DNA of 64,000 nt, from positions 62,001 through 126,000 of the forward strand of contig JACQZU010000024.1 of NCBI GenBank assembly GCA_016213735.1, given 5' to 3'. The position numbers were made by a program, and so were the translations under genes. This document shows, one piece after another, positions 7,610 through 13,565 of this stretch; the first letter of the stretch is position 1, and each line of letters opens with the position of its first letter. The notes beneath the pieces were generated by a model, which was given only the letters and a program-made list of their open reading frames with translations, had not been told where the DNA came from and ran no database searches. The stretch is from Acidobacteriota bacterium (lineage in GTDB: Bacteria > Acidobacteriota > Holophagae > Holophagales > Holophagaceae).

Positions 7610-8722
7610 CTACTTCCAGCTCGCCCAGTAGTCAGGATTCTCAACGGCTTCCGCGGCGGGAGTGGCGTGCAGGGGGTGGAGCGTGTCCACCATGACCGCC
7701 ACTTCATCGGTGCGGTCCTTCTGGCGGCTGGCGGGAATGGCCTTGGGATGAGGGCCGTGATGGATTCCCTGGGGGTGCCAGGTCATCATGCCGGGCCCGA
7801 TTCCGTCGCGGCTGAAGAAGTGCCCGTCGCTGTAGAACAGCACCTCGTCATAGTCGATGTTGCTGTGGAAGAAGGGCACCCGCATCGCCCCCGCCTCTTC
7901 CTCGAAAGGCCTGGGGAGGAAGGAACAGATGACGAAGTTCCGCCCCAGGAAGGTGCTGTGGGCCGAGGGCGGAAGGTGGTAACGGTGGCTCATCACCGGG
8001 CGGATGTCCTTCACATTGACGCGCCAGACGGTGAGGTCGCCCTTCCAGCCCACCGCGTCCAAAGGATGGAAGGGGTAGAAGACCCGAGTGATCTGCCCCT
8101 CCCGCTGAATGTGTACCGCCCACTCCCGGTCCGCGCCTTCGGAGTAGGCCTCCAGCTCGGGAGTGTCGATCACCGCGGGGTCGAAGAGGGCGTGAGCGCC
8201 CAGCTGGTTCCGGTCCGGGATCGTCACCTCACCGGCGCTCTCGATCAGCAGGTAGCCCTGGGGCGAAGTGTTGGGCAGGAACCGGTAGGTGGTGCCCCGG
8301 GGAATGACCAGGTAGTCGCCCCGGGCGTAGTCGAGCACGCCGAAGCTGCATTCGAGGCGCCCGCCCCCGGCGTGGATGAAGTACACATCGTCGCCGTCGG
8401 CGTTGCGGTAGAAGAAGTCCATGGTCCGGGGCGCGACCCAGTGGAGGGCCACGTCGTGGTTGTGGAGCAGGCCTACGGGGGCGAAGGCGGCCTCGGGCTT
8501 CGCCGGGAGGCGGTTCAGGTCGTAGCTTCGGGGGCGCAGGGGTCCTTCGATGCGGGTCCAGGCCGTGGGGGGATGGAGCCGGTAGAAATGGGTGGTCCGC
8601 CCGAAGAAGCCCTGCCGGGCGAATTCCTCCTCGAAGGTGCCCTCGGGCAGGTCCACGTGGGCCTGGCGGGTGACGCGCCCCTTCCGGAGCGGGAAGATCG
8701 GGGTCTCATTGGCGAGGCGCAT
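7610..8722 (-). CDS. hmgA: Homogentisate 1,2-dioxygenase
   Basis: The 370-residue product matches the homogentisate dioxygenase family, which opens the homogentisate ring with O2 in tyrosine and phenylalanine breakdown. The cupin C-terminal half keeps the iron-site region, with NIDYDEVLFY (Glu ligand) and HPQGIHHGPHP (His ligands). It is shorter than the roughly 440-residue eukaryotic enzyme, as many bacterial relatives are. The start is the ATG at 8722, behind GAGGGGAA. No fumarylacetoacetase or maleylacetoacetate isomerase is next to it, so the rest of the pathway must lie elsewhere. It implies at least occasional aerobic growth. Confidence 0.9.
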   Translation of the reverse strand: MRLANETPIFPLRKGRVTRQAHVDLPEGTFEEEFARQGFFGRTTHFYRLHPPTAWTRIEGPLRPRSYDLNRLPAKPEAAFAPVGLLHNHDVALHWVAPRTMDFFYRNADGDDVYFIHAGGGRLECSFGVLDYARGDYLVIPRGTTYRFLPNTSPQGYLLIESAGEVTIPDRNQLGAHALFDPAVIDTPELEAYSEGADREWAVHIQREGQITRVFYPFHPLDAVGWKGDLTVWRVNVKDIRPVMSHRYHLPPSAHSTFLGRNFVICSFLPRPFEEEAGAMRVPFFHSNIDYDEVLFYSDGHFFSRDGIGPGMMTWHPQGIHHGPHPKAIPASRQKDRTDEVAVMVDTLHPLHATPAAEAVENPDYWASWK

Positions 8723-8828
8723 GGTGGTTCCCCTCGGTGCAGGAGCCAGTCTAGCCAGCGGGATTGAGGAGTCCCCTCTCCACGTTCCCCCGGGAGGCCC
8801 GGTCGATATCCTGTTCGGAAGGAATGCT

Positions 8829-10031
8829 GTGCATCGACTCGCCCTTACATGGATCCTTGGTTTCCTGCTGGCGGCCCTTCCCCTGCCGGGCGGGGACGCG
8901 GCCCCCGGGCTCTCCCCCGGGGCCGAGGCCCTCGTGGCCCGGGCCTTCCGGGGCCTCGGCCCCGGGTCCGTGCTGGACTTCCACGCGCACCTGGTAGGGC
9001 TGGAGGCCGGCGGGGCCTTCGTCAACCCGCGCAAGCTGAGCCCCAGGCATCCCCTGGAATGGGCCACCACCCGCTTGTACCTCCGCGCCAGCGGGGTCCA
9101 GGGCCTCCGTGATTTCGACCGGGCCTACGTGGGGAAGCTCCTGGAACGGGCCGGTGCCTTCCCGGCGCCCCTGCGGATCCACCTCCTGGCCATGGACCGC
9201 GTGTACCGCCGGGACGGAAGCCCCGACGACGCGCACACCGAATTCTTCGTGCCCAACGAGGCGGTGGTGGACCTGGCGCGGCGGCACCCCGATCGCTTCG
9301 TCCCCGTCATTTCCGTGCACCCCTACCGGAAGGACGCCCTGGAGGAACTGGACCGCTGGGCCGCGGAAGGGGTGCGCTGCGTCAAATGGCTGCCCAACGC
9401 CCAGGGCATGGATCCCGCCGATCCTCTCTGCGACCCTTTCTATGCCCGGATGGCGGTTCACCGCATGGTGCTCCTCAGCCACGCGGGAGAGGAGCGGGCG
9501 GTGAAGGCCGGGGAGGCCCAGCGCCTGGGCAACCCTCTCCGCCTGCGGCGGGCCCTGGATGCAGGCGTCACCGTGGTCGTGGCGCACTGCGCCGGCCTGG
9601 GGGAAGGCGAGGACCTGGACCACCCGGGGCGCCGGGTGCCCAACTTCGAGCTCTTCCTGCGCCTGATGGGGGAGGAGAAGTACCGGGGCCGCCTGTTCGG
9701 GGACCTCTCGGCCCTCACCCAGGCCAACCGCATGCCCGGGCCCCTGCGGGCCATCCTCCGGGATCCCGGCCTCCAGGCCCGCCTGGTGAACGGAAGCGAC
9801 TATCCCCTGCCGGGCATCCCCCTCCTGGTCTCTCCGCGCCAGTTCGCCCGCTTGGGAATGGTGGGGCCCGGAGAGGCCCGTGCCATCGTGGAACTCCTCC
9901 GGACCAATCCGCTTCTGGGGGATTTCGTGCTCAAACGGACGCTCCGGGATCCGCATTCTGGAAAAGGCCTGGATCCCGCGATTTTCACCCGGGACCCTTC
10001 CTTCCTCAGTGGTCCTCCGCCAGCTCCGTGA
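8829..10031 (+). CDS. Exported TIM-barrel amidohydrolase (Amidohydro_2-like)
   Basis: A GTG start at 8829, behind GGAAGGAA, gives 400 residues. The N-terminus (VHRLALTWILGFLLAALPL) looks like a signal peptide, which is unusual for this mostly cytoplasmic family. Metal-site motifs are LDFHAHLVG (HxH), CVKWLPNAQGMDP, VVVAHCAG and NGSDYPLPG (Asp). The family includes gamma-resorcylate decarboxylase-like and lactone hydrolase-like enzymes. The gene is divergent from hmgA, but a pathway link is only a guess. Its last 26 bases overlap the moeA end on the other strand. Confidence 0.82.
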   Translation: MHRLALTWILGFLLAALPLPGGDAAPGLSPGAEALVARAFRGLGPGSVLDFHAHLVGLEAGGAFVNPRKLSPRHPLEWATTRLYLRASGVQGLRDFDRAYVGKLLERAGAFPAPLRIHLLAMDRVYRRDGSPDDAHTEFFVPNEAVVDLARRHPDRFVPVISVHPYRKDALEELDRWAAEGVRCVKWLPNAQGMDPADPLCDPFYARMAVHRMVLLSHAGEERAVKAGEAQRLGNPLRLRRALDAGVTVVVAHCAGLGEGEDLDHPGRRVPNFELFLRLMGEEKYRGRLFGDLSALTQANRMPGPLRAILRDPGLQARLVNGSDYPLPGIPLLVSPRQFARLGMVGPGEARAIVELLRTNPLLGDFVLKRTLRDPHSGKGLDPAIFTRDPSFLSGPPPAP

Positions 10032-11221: not shown

Positions 11222-13138
11222 TCACAGGGCCTCCAGGATGGCAGCGGCCAGATCGCTGAGGCTGGGGTCCCGTGCGCCCATCACCAGGATGAGGTCACCG
11301 TCCCGGGCCTCGGCGGCCAGTTCTTCGACCAGGCGTTCCCGGGAGGGGGCAAAGGCCGCCGGGGCCCCCCGGGCCTGGAGATCCGCGACGACTTCCGCCG
11401 AGCTGAGGTCCTTCGCCGCGGTGCCGCCGGCGTAGAAGACCTCCAGCATCCAGAGCCGGTCACGGGGGCCCAGTTCCGCGGCGAAGGCGTCCACCAGTTC
11501 GGCGCGCATGAAGCGCAGGGGGCCGAAGCCGTGGGGCTGGAACACCGCCAGAACGCGGGGCGAGCGCAGGCGGGCGGTCCGGAGCGAGGCGGTGATCTTG
11601 GCGGGGTTGTGGCCGAAGTCGTCCACCACCACCACGCCCTTCCGCTCGCCCAGCACCTGGAATCGGCGGGCCACGCCCTGGAAGGCGGCCAGGGGGGCCG
11701 CCAGTTCCCCCAGAGGCACCCCCAGGGCCACGCAGGCGGCCAGGGCCGCCACGGCGTTCTCAGCGTTGTGGAGGCCCGGCTGGGGCACCGTGAAGGGAAT
11801 TCCCTCGACTTCGAAACTGGAAGATTCCGCACCGGTGCGGAGGTTCAAGGCCCGGAGGCCGGGTCCCTCGCCCAGGCCGAAGCGCAGGGCTCCCGGATGC
11901 AGCGCGGCCAGCGCGGGATCGTCCCCCACCAGCAAGCCCTCCCGCAGGCGGTCCGCGAATCTCCGGAAAAAATCCAGCACCACGGCGGGCTCCTTGTGGT
12001 CCCTCTGAAGGTTCAACAGGAGTCCCAGGCAGGCGTCATAGCGAACCAGGGACCCGTCGCTCTCGTCGGCCTCGACCACCAGGAATTCCGAAGCTCCCGC
12101 CCAGGCGTTGCCCCAGAGGCCCTCCGAGCGCAGGCGGATCAGGTCCCCCCCCGTGATCACGGAAGGGTCCCGCCCCGCGCCCCGTAGCAGCTCGAAGACC
12201 ATGGCCGTCGTGGTGGACTTGCCGCTGGTTCCGCTCACCGCCACGGTGCGGGCGCCGGCCACGAAGTGGGCCAGCAGTTCGGACCGGTGGATCAGGGGCA
12301 CGCCGCGGCGCTGGGCCTCCGCGAAGTCGGGGACCTCGGGCTCCACCGCGGTGGAGGTGACCAGGCCCGAGCAGTCCCCCGCCAGACCGCTGCCGTCCTG
12401 GGGGTGGAGGGCGATGCCCAGGGACTCCAGGCGCGCGCGGGCGGCGGGAAAGAGGCCCCGGTCGAAGCTGCGGTCGCTGCCGCTGGCCCGCCCCCCGCGC
12501 AGGGCCAGGAACTGGGCCAGGGCGCTCATGCCGCTGCCGCCCACGCCCGCGAAGTGAAGGCGGCCGAGGCCCAAGGCGGCTCCGCCCGGGGCGATGAGGA
12601 CGGGGTCGCCTTCCCGGGCGATCTCGAAGAGTTGCAGGACCGCGGCGTTCCCCAGGCGCACGCAGCCGTGGGAGCAGGGCTCGCCGAGGCGCCCCTCCTG
12701 GTTGGTCCCGTGGAGGTAGATGAAGCGATCCAGGGAATCGCACCCGGGACCCCGGTTGACGCCCTCCTCCAGGCCCTCCAGCGTCAGGATGCGCGTGAGG
12801 ATGAGGTCCTCGGCCGAGGCCTCGCCGCGCCACACCTGGCCGGTGGGAACGCGGCCGCGGAACACGGCGCCGTCGGGCGCTTCCGAGCCGATGCGGGCGT
12901 GGACCCGGTGCCAGCCCGGGGGGGTGCGGTAGGAGTCCTGGCCGCCGCCCAGGCCCTTCGCGGCCGTGGAGACGGGCGCCTCGAAGCGGAGAACCCCCTC
13001 CTCCAGCAGGCCCAGGCGCTGGCGGTCCACGTCCACCACCAGGAGCCGGGCGGGCAGGTCCGGGAAGGGCGTCCCGGCCCGGGCCAGGCCCGCCAGGCCC
13101 AGGGCCCGGAAGCGGGCGGCCCCGAGGGGATCAGCCAT
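11222..13138 (-). CDS. Fusion of L,D-transpeptidase (YkuD) and MurC-like Mur ligase
   Basis: This 638-residue protein joins two peptidoglycan domains. Residues 30-185 form a YkuD domain with the full catalytic motif (His143, then SHGCVR with Cys159 and Arg161). Residues 192-638 form a three-domain Mur ligase: GVGGSGMSALA at 198-208, the P-loop GTSGKSTT at 303-310, EADESDGS near 357, GLHNAENA near 456, DDFGHNP near 506 and FQPHGFGP near 533. The last motifs are closest to MurC. YkuD enzymes normally act outside the membrane and Mur ligases inside. No signal peptide or membrane segment is seen, so both should be cytoplasmic. It overlaps the upstream membrane gene by eight bases. The substrate may be recycled muropeptide or a side-chain ligation. 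Confidence 0.88.
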   Translation of the reverse strand: MADPLGAARFRALGLAGLARAGTPFPDLPARLLVVDVDRQRLGLLEEGVLRFEAPVSTAAKGLGGGQDSYRTPPGWHRVHARIGSEAPDGAVFRGRVPTGQVWRGEASAEDLILTRILTLEGLEEGVNRGPGCDSLDRFIYLHGTNQEGRLGEPCSHGCVRLGNAAVLQLFEIAREGDPVLIAPGGAALGLGRLHFAGVGGSGMSALAQFLALRGGRASGSDRSFDRGLFPAARARLESLGIALHPQDGSGLAGDCSGLVTSTAVEPEVPDFAEAQRRGVPLIHRSELLAHFVAGARTVAVSGTSGKSTTTAMVFELLRGAGRDPSVITGGDLIRLRSEGLWGNAWAGASEFLVVEADESDGSLVRYDACLGLLLNLQRDHKEPAVVLDFFRRFADRLREGLLVGDDPALAALHPGALRFGLGEGPGLRALNLRTGAESSSFEVEGIPFTVPQPGLHNAENAVAALAACVALGVPLGELAAPLAAFQGVARRFQVLGERKGVVVVDDFGHNPAKITASLRTARLRSPRVLAVFQPHGFGPLRFMRAELVDAFAAELGPRDRLWMLEVFYAGGTAAKDLSSAEVVADLQARGAPAAFAPSRERLVEELAAEARDGDLILVMGARDPSLSDLAAAILEAL

Positions 13139-13565
13139 CCGTCAGCCGGCGCGGGAGAAAGGACCGATGCCGCCAGGTGCGGGGCATGTGGGATCCCACC
13201 GAGGCCACCACCGCCGCCGCCAGGTACCAGGGGTACCGGTCCGAGGCCAGGTGCATGCCCACCGCGAGGCAGCCCAGCTTGAGCAGGAGGGCGAGGCCGC
13301 TGCCCTCGAACATCACCGCAGCGCTGCGGTAGAGGTCCAGGGCCCAAAGACCCAGGCCGGAGAAGACCGTCAGGCAGATGGCCACCCGCAGGGCCCGGCG
13401 GTCGTGGACGTAAGGGGTGGCCCCGAGCATCACCGCCATGGCGGCGATGTGGACGCTGCGCAGGGCCACGTTGATCCAGCGGGCCCACAGGGCCTGGCGG
13501 GGAACCGCGGGGAAGAGGGTTCGGGCCAGGGGGCCGGACTGGAGCCTGAGGACCATTTCGCGCAT
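13131..13565 (-). CDS. Small integral membrane protein
   Basis: The 144-residue product has about four hydrophobic segments (around 28-45, 52-71, 80-95 and 105-122), linked by short Arg-rich loops. It ends RHRSFLPRRLTDG. I do not recognise the family. The start is the ATG at 13565, and Met4 is an alternative. Its stop overlaps the YkuD/Mur-ligase start by eight bases (ATGGCTGA), so the two are very likely co-translated. That makes it a candidate membrane partner for the fusion protein. Confidence 0.75.
   Translation of the reverse strand: MREMVLRLQSGPLARTLFPAVPRQALWARWINVALRSVHIAAMAVMLGATPYVHDRRALRVAICLTVFSGLGLWALDLYRSAAVMFEGSGLALLLKLGCLAVGMHLASDRYPWYLAAAVVASVGSHMPRTWRHRSFLPRRLTDG

Follow-up and report, generated by a model that had tools for sequence, protein, structure and literature searches.

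The question raised by this locus is why an L,D-transpeptidase-fold (YkuD) domain and a Mur ligase should reside on one polypeptide. The gene lies in the window, meaning the entire stretch of 64,000 nucleotides of Holophagaceae DNA that was analyzed, where positions 11222-13138 of the minus strand form a single ORF of 638 amino acids with zero internal stops. An earlier note on this DNA had recognized both domains and regarded their cellular locations as contradictory. The protein is probably a bifunctional enzyme that recycles peptidoglycan peptides in the cytoplasm, for which we infer both activities, their substrates, and any coupling between them. The relevant features are as follows.

11222-13138, minus strand: coding sequence of the YkuD-Mur ligase fusion protein, 638 amino acids, ATG start, intact orthologues
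12593-13048, minus strand: YkuD domain (L,D-transpeptidase/L,D-carboxypeptidase fold), residues 31-182 (PF03734; ElsL is the best NCBIfam match)
12656-12673, minus strand: SHGCVR, residues 156-161, with catalytic Cys159 (orthologue alignment)
12704-12712, minus strand: HGT, residues 143-145, with catalytic His143 (orthologue alignment)
12254-12559, minus strand: Mur ligase N-terminal domain (UDP-sugar binding), residues 194-295 (PF01225)
11732-12238, minus strand: Mur ligase middle domain (ATPase), residues 301-469 (PF08245)
12209-12232, minus strand: P-loop GTSGKSTT, residues 303-310 (G[TS]HGKT in MurC and Mpl rows)
11270-11668, minus strand: Mur ligase C-terminal domain (incoming substrate), residues 491-623 (PF02875)
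11519-11539, minus strand: QPHGFGP clade-specific loop, residues 534-540 (joint alignment against MurC and Mpl)
11267-11281, minus strand: MGARD clade motif, residues 620-624, with invariant Arg623 (orthologue alignment)

Residues 31-182 match the YkuD profile with an E-value of 8.7e-18 and 65.7 bits (Pfam cut-off 23.4), and the Mur_ligase, Mur_ligase_M, and Mur_ligase_C domains follow in order, each above its Pfam cut-off and with the P-loop present. Thus, an intact reading frame with four Pfam domains above cut-off bears out the presence of an L,D-transpeptidase-fold domain and a Mur ligase on one chain. Both halves were also said to carry complete catalytic motifs (HGT, SHGCVR with Cys159, and the P-loop at 303-310), which agrees with an alignment of 20 Holophagaceae orthologues in which almost every one of these residues is the same throughout. 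Ser156, His157, Gly158, Cys159, and Arg161 are unchanged in all 20, as is the catalytic pair His143 and Cys159; the GTSGKST of the P-loop is invariant in the same alignment, and HGT, SHGCxR, GTSGKST, EADESDG, DH, HN, DD, HNPAK, and QPHG are each invariant or nearly so.

It is exceedingly improbable that this gene is an artefact, with a missed stop or a frameshift merging two genes. The identical frame-joined architecture is present in at least 20 genomes, some of them single-contig, across three lineages, and GC3 is high both before and after the YkuD/ligase junction; together these observations exclude such an error near residue 190, where the earlier note had located the risk. The structure prediction that had been suggested as a check returned one confident chain (AlphaFold2, mean pLDDT 92.8, pTM 0.91), which likewise argues against an artefact. 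When this model was compared with known structures, the ligase part matched Haemophilus influenzae MurC (1p3d) with a Z-score of 46.9 and an rmsd of 1.9 Å over 435 aligned residues, and matched Mpl (3hn7) more poorly (Z 31.3, rmsd 4.6, 425 residues). The YkuD part, modeled by itself, matched Bacillus subtilis YkuD (1y7m; Z 15.6, rmsd 2.7, 116 residues). The claim that the protein lacks a signal peptide also stands. An in-frame TGA lies two codons 5′ of the ATG, and a search of residues 1-60 for a hydrophobic stretch found none, so the fusion protein should remain in the cytoplasm.

The ligase half belongs to neither of the two families that it most resembles. Its score against the MurC profile (TIGR01082) is 281.1 bits, below the curated cut-off of 335.1, and its score against the Mpl profile (TIGR01081) is 99.8 bits, below the curated cut-off of 388.7; intact Mpl proteins of Acidobacteriota reach about 315-498 bits against this profile. 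In a joint alignment, the ligase and its relatives share the motifs GTSGKST (GTNGKTT at the P-loop of a Brocadiales member), DDF[GA]HN..K, [FY]QPHG[FY].P, a YAGGT-type motif, and MGARD, whereas the MurC rows carry G[TS]HGKT and QPHR[YF][TS]R. Each of the seven Mpl rows carries AFFDK or AYFDK, and most also carry an EP[AR]SNT loop; the Mpl motif (S/T)AFFDKRSK and the EPRSNT loop are absent from all 16 rows of the new clade that were aligned. In a maximum-likelihood tree, MurC forms one group (100/96) and Mpl forms another (99/100), and the new clade falls outside both. Judged by curated score, motif, and tree, the ligase is a member of a third clade beside MurC and Mpl.

The residues of H. influenzae MurC that are thought to bind L-Ala are Tyr346, His348, His376, Arg377, and Arg380 (PMC3060825). 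Their equivalents in the fusion ligase are Phe508, His510, His536, Gly537, and Pro540, such that Tyr346 is replaced by Phe, as in Mpl, and the putative L-Ala-holding pair Arg377/Arg380 is replaced by Gly537/Pro540. If the first residue is already part of a peptide, its carboxylate would not need to be held, as in Mpl. Thus, the earlier description of a MurC-like ligase is apt for the fold, and the sequence is about 30-38% identical to MurC, but the fusion ligase scores under the MurC cut-off, has lost the Arg pair, carries GTSGKS rather than G[TS]HGKT, and is accompanied by a real MurC. Given the replaced L-Ala residues, the separate MurC, and the distribution described below, MurC is probably the wrong name for its activity. 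Mpl offers the closer functional parallel, since it is also a MurC-related three-domain ligase that occurs beside canonical MurC and is paired with an L,D-carboxypeptidase (TIGR01081; PMC3060825), and by analogy the reaction expected of the fusion ligase is the same. The fusion ligase nevertheless differs from Mpl in lacking AFFDK and EP[AR]SNT, in its score (99.8 vs 388.7 bits), and in its separate tree branch, and the clade probably arose separately from MurC-like ancestors.

For the YkuD half, the best NCBIfam match is ElsL (NF040925), although the score of 118.6 bits is below the cut-off of 270. ElsL of Acinetobacter baumannii, described in 2021, is a leaderless cytoplasmic YkuD protein with demonstrated L,D-carboxypeptidase activity on tetrapeptides (PMC8649774). 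The fusion shares with it the absence of a leader, given the TGA two codons before the ATG, and the catalytic cysteine (Cys159), and by analogy would likewise convert tetrapeptide to tripeptide ahead of a ligase; it differs in that ElsL stands alone and the YkuD domain of the fusion is attached to its ligase. The earlier suggestion of L,D-peptide trimming therefore holds up. ElsL feeds Mpl, and on loss of ElsL, Mpl makes toxic tetrapeptide precursors (PMC8649774), an effect for which PMC13046382 also cites Templin et al.

These comparisons are consistent with a two-step reaction. The YkuD domain would act as an L,D-carboxypeptidase: with Cys159 forming the acyl-enzyme, it would cleave the terminal D-Ala off recovered tetrapeptide (L-Ala-D-Glu-mDAP-D-Ala), whether free or sugar-bound. 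The ligase would then activate UDP-MurNAc with ATP as an acyl-phosphate and join this to the tripeptide at its free amino group, yielding UDP-MurNAc-tripeptide for MurF. One chain would thereby do the jobs of ElsL or LdcA and of Mpl, and physical linkage of trimmer and ligase would bar from new wall any untrimmed tetrapeptide, a source of toxic precursors in the absence of LdcA or ElsL. The acceptor and peptide in this scheme are deduced from family knowledge, distribution, and gene association. By analogy with the known pathway, the two domains would catalyze consecutive steps in the cytoplasm, so the supposed contradiction between their locations falls away.

Genome distribution points to a Mpl-type tripeptide ligase acting on UDP-MurNAc. 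The source genome encodes five Mur ligases, namely MurC, MurD, MurE, and MurF from separate genes and the fusion ligase. Canonical MurC is thus present elsewhere in this genome, which answers the earlier concern that the fusion might be its sole MurC, and the fusion genomes that were checked retain canonical MurC as well. Mpl was sought in the source genome, whose recycling genes were searched family by family, and was not found. Among 60 relatives, the ligase clade occurs in 23 genomes, Mpl in 10, and both in none (naive Fisher p 0.009, uncorrected for relatedness). In a set of 396 Acidobacteriota genomes, Mpl called by the curated TIGR01081 cut-off of 388.7 is present in 179 but in none of the 39 from Holophagaceae, of which 34 have the clade ligase. 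Because the absence of Mpl within Acidobacteriota concerns one lineage, these counts are not independent; the absence in Holophagaceae is one evolutionary event, and repeat support comes from other lineages, which supply most of the 14 named clade-carrying genomes in which no Mpl over cut-off was found. Sister family f2 has separate ElsL-like YkuD genes (147-156 bits vs ElsL; 46-48% identical to the fused YkuD domain) and separate Mpl genes, and by analogy would possess both proposed functions in unfused form. Neither the fusion nor Mpl is present in three reduced Holophagaceae genomes (0.9-1.2 Mb; G007, G016, and G024 of genus g8), all of which retain MurC and two of which have AmpG over cut-off.

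The same domain order was found in other genomes, as the earlier note had proposed to check. Full-length fusions that are 62-70% identical occur in about 20 of the 37 Holophagaceae genomes first searched, and fusions at 57-60% identity occur outside the family in Methyloceanibacter, other Hyphomicrobiaceae, and Candidatus Eisenbacteria. Stand-alone members of the ligase clade are found in Elusimicrobia, Planctomycetota, Brocadiales, and some Eisenbacteria, and a search with two peptide patterns recovered 298 relatives of the ligase in about 85,000 species genomes. In the YkuD tree the fused domains stay together with support of only 66/87, and in the ligase tree the fused rows do not form one group, so a single origin of the fusion with later losses is, from these trees, likely rather than certain. 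In some alphaproteobacterial members (L111, L112, L128, L132, and L134, from Methyloceanibacter and relatives), SHGC is replaced by SCGC or SQGC and the catalytic His and Cys are kept. B. subtilis YkuD itself has SKGC, so this replacement need not inactivate them.

Gene associations repeatedly bring an L,D-carboxypeptidase to this ligase. In one Holophagaceae locus (L078), the ligase stands without a YkuD part, and immediately 3′ of it begins an S66/LdcA gene, which suggests that the trimming function was swapped rather than lost. In L142, three consecutive genes separately encode an ElsL-like YkuD protein, the ligase, and a lytic transglycosylase of SLT type. A comparable arrangement exists for true Mpl, which in G059 is preceded by an LdcA gene; the two proposed activities are again adjoining, but the peptidase is of another family (S66) and the genes are separate. 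In the source genome, the single S66 protein was rejected as a cytoplasmic trimmer, since it begins MNHRRSFLKSALAAALAAPLAPRLGAAP, an export signal, and the YkuD part is therefore the only cytoplasmic L,D-carboxypeptidase candidate found there. In some Elusimicrobia the ligase comes after an NlpC/P60 gene or is continuous with it. As a point against the proposed reading, no L,D-carboxypeptidase gene was found in the readable flanks of clade members from Elusimicrobia, Planctomycetota, and Brocadiales.

Two further loci bear on gene structure. In the elusimicrobial locus L125 (462-3923, plus strand), C39_2, NlpC/P60, and a clade Mur ligase occupy one open frame of 1154 amino acids, which from its sequence is possibly a second murein-hydrolase fusion; in related genomes (compare L133 and L138), this upstream gene seems instead to lie in a different frame and to overlap that of the ligase. 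Locus L121 was considered as a case in which a distinct ElsL gene overlaps that of the ligase, but the YkuD matches there fall in two frames, and assembly frameshifts in a fused gene are more likely. We excluded L121 from the evidence.

An alternative is that the ligase is a second MurC, a conditional paralogue that adds L-Ala to UDP-MurNAc, with YkuD as an accessory domain. Indeed, its best matches in both sequence and structure are to MurC rather than Mpl (281 vs 99.8 bits; Z 46.9 vs 31.3), the clade gene directly follows murD in five genomes of genus g5, and overproduced Escherichia coli Mpl can itself take L-Ala (PMC3060825). However, the fusion genomes that were checked already keep canonical MurC, the change of Arg377 and Arg380 to Gly and Pro and of Tyr346 to the Phe of Mpl affects the very residues thought to bind L-Ala, and a second MurC leaves unexplained the repeated pairing with an L,D-carboxypeptidase as a fused YkuD, an adjacent YkuD, or an adjacent LdcA. 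We therefore regard this reading as unlikely. We consider it quite unlikely that the enzyme uses a different acceptor or peptide, such as another muropeptide sugar or a secondary-metabolite peptide, in a role outside peptidoglycan recycling. Compared with MurC and Mpl, the UDP-sugar domain has an extended loop after GSD, which means that the acceptor could differ, the C-terminal domain has clade-specific loops, and the neighbors in the source genome are not murein genes. Set against these points are the MurC fold at 1.9 Å over 435 residues, a distribution complementary to that of Mpl, and the proximity of murD in genus g5, of the lytic transglycosylase in L142, and of NlpC/P60 in several Elusimicrobia.

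The YkuD domain might instead perform exchange or transfer: after formation of the tripeptidyl acyl-enzyme, the terminal residue would be swapped (D-amino-acid editing) or a different amine would take the tripeptide, and the peptide thus edited would be attached by the ligase. YkuD enzymes commonly carry out transpeptidation or exchange besides hydrolysis, and the catalytic Cys and His are invariant, as this reading would expect. ElsL, the nearest characterized relative, hydrolyzes its substrate (PMC8649774), the presence of LdcA in place of the YkuD part in L078 implies simple trimming, and a tetrapeptide-type product would block MurF; exchange or transfer is accordingly very unlikely. Trimming followed by tripeptide ligation remains our preferred reading. 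We also propose, tentatively and as a possibility rather than a probability, that the clade is a third group of UDP-MurNAc:peptide ligases, of MurC-like ancestry independent of Mpl, that forms a built-in proofreading pair with YkuD and has replaced Mpl and ElsL/LdcA in Holophagaceae and, by gene transfer, in some Alphaproteobacteria and Eisenbacteria. The fused YkuD would hand fresh tripeptide to the ligase, such that tetrapeptide could not enter new precursors.

A search of the open-access literature found no description of the fusion or of the ligase clade. Cytoplasmic trimming by YkuD (ElsL), tripeptide ligation (Mpl), and Mur-ligase fusions (MurC-Ddl, NF011171; MurE-MurF, NF008896) are each already known. 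These fusions also place two precursor-synthesis steps on one chain, but they join biosynthetic ligases, whereas the present fusion joins a recycling peptidase to a ligase. What seems new is this combination, together with a third ligase clade as an apparent substitute for Mpl. Bacteria without LdcA and Mpl possibly degrade wall tripeptides to amino acids rather than reuse them (PMC13046382). If our assignment is correct, lineages of this kind would have, in the fusion and its ligase clade, a full route for tripeptides that is missed when genomes are searched for LdcA and Mpl homologues. The fusion would also couple a recycling peptidase with a precursor ligase on one chain, which makes sense given the toxicity of untrimmed tetrapeptide precursors, and a third solution makes the rules by which MurC and Mpl select substrates testable.

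The immediate surroundings of the gene are less instructive. The fusion gene overlaps a 144-amino acid membrane-protein ORF (13131-13565) by 8 bases; the overlap and the non-murein character of the neighbors were correctly described. Neither this ORF nor moeA lies beside the gene in relatives, except for a 44% homologue of the 144-amino acid protein in L078, and we therefore rejected the operon as a hint of function. Elsewhere, and in favor of the recycling reading, the source genome encodes AnmK, GH3 (NagZ-type), and Amidase_2 (AmpD-type) proteins. Its only AmpG candidate is an AmpG-family permease or paralogue (162 vs 350 bits), whereas strict AmpG (>400 bits) occurs in every other Holophagaceae genome with a full-length fusion among the 60, a difference that weighs against our reading but that we treat cautiously, since the source assembly is in draft form (28 contigs, 97% completeness). 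The AmpG-family permease gene at G000:C10:205775-207055 (L149:7775-9055, minus strand) adjoins HGSNAT-like, GHL10 glycosidase, and SIS-domain genes and is perhaps part of a wall-sugar uptake cluster; in G014, an AmpG paralogue adjoins a gene that is murQ-like as judged from sequence. At G000:C10:190588-192324 (L155:2588-4324, plus strand), one open frame combines a Peptidase_M15 domain (D-Ala-D-Ala dipeptidase, DdpX-like) with a C-terminal match to YkuD that is weak (21-24 bits); a gene of the DAP/Orn/Arg decarboxylase family lies just downstream. Within the window, positions 7610-8842 of the minus strand encode a very distant relative of homogentisate 1,2-dioxygenase (59 bits vs a cut-off of 511).
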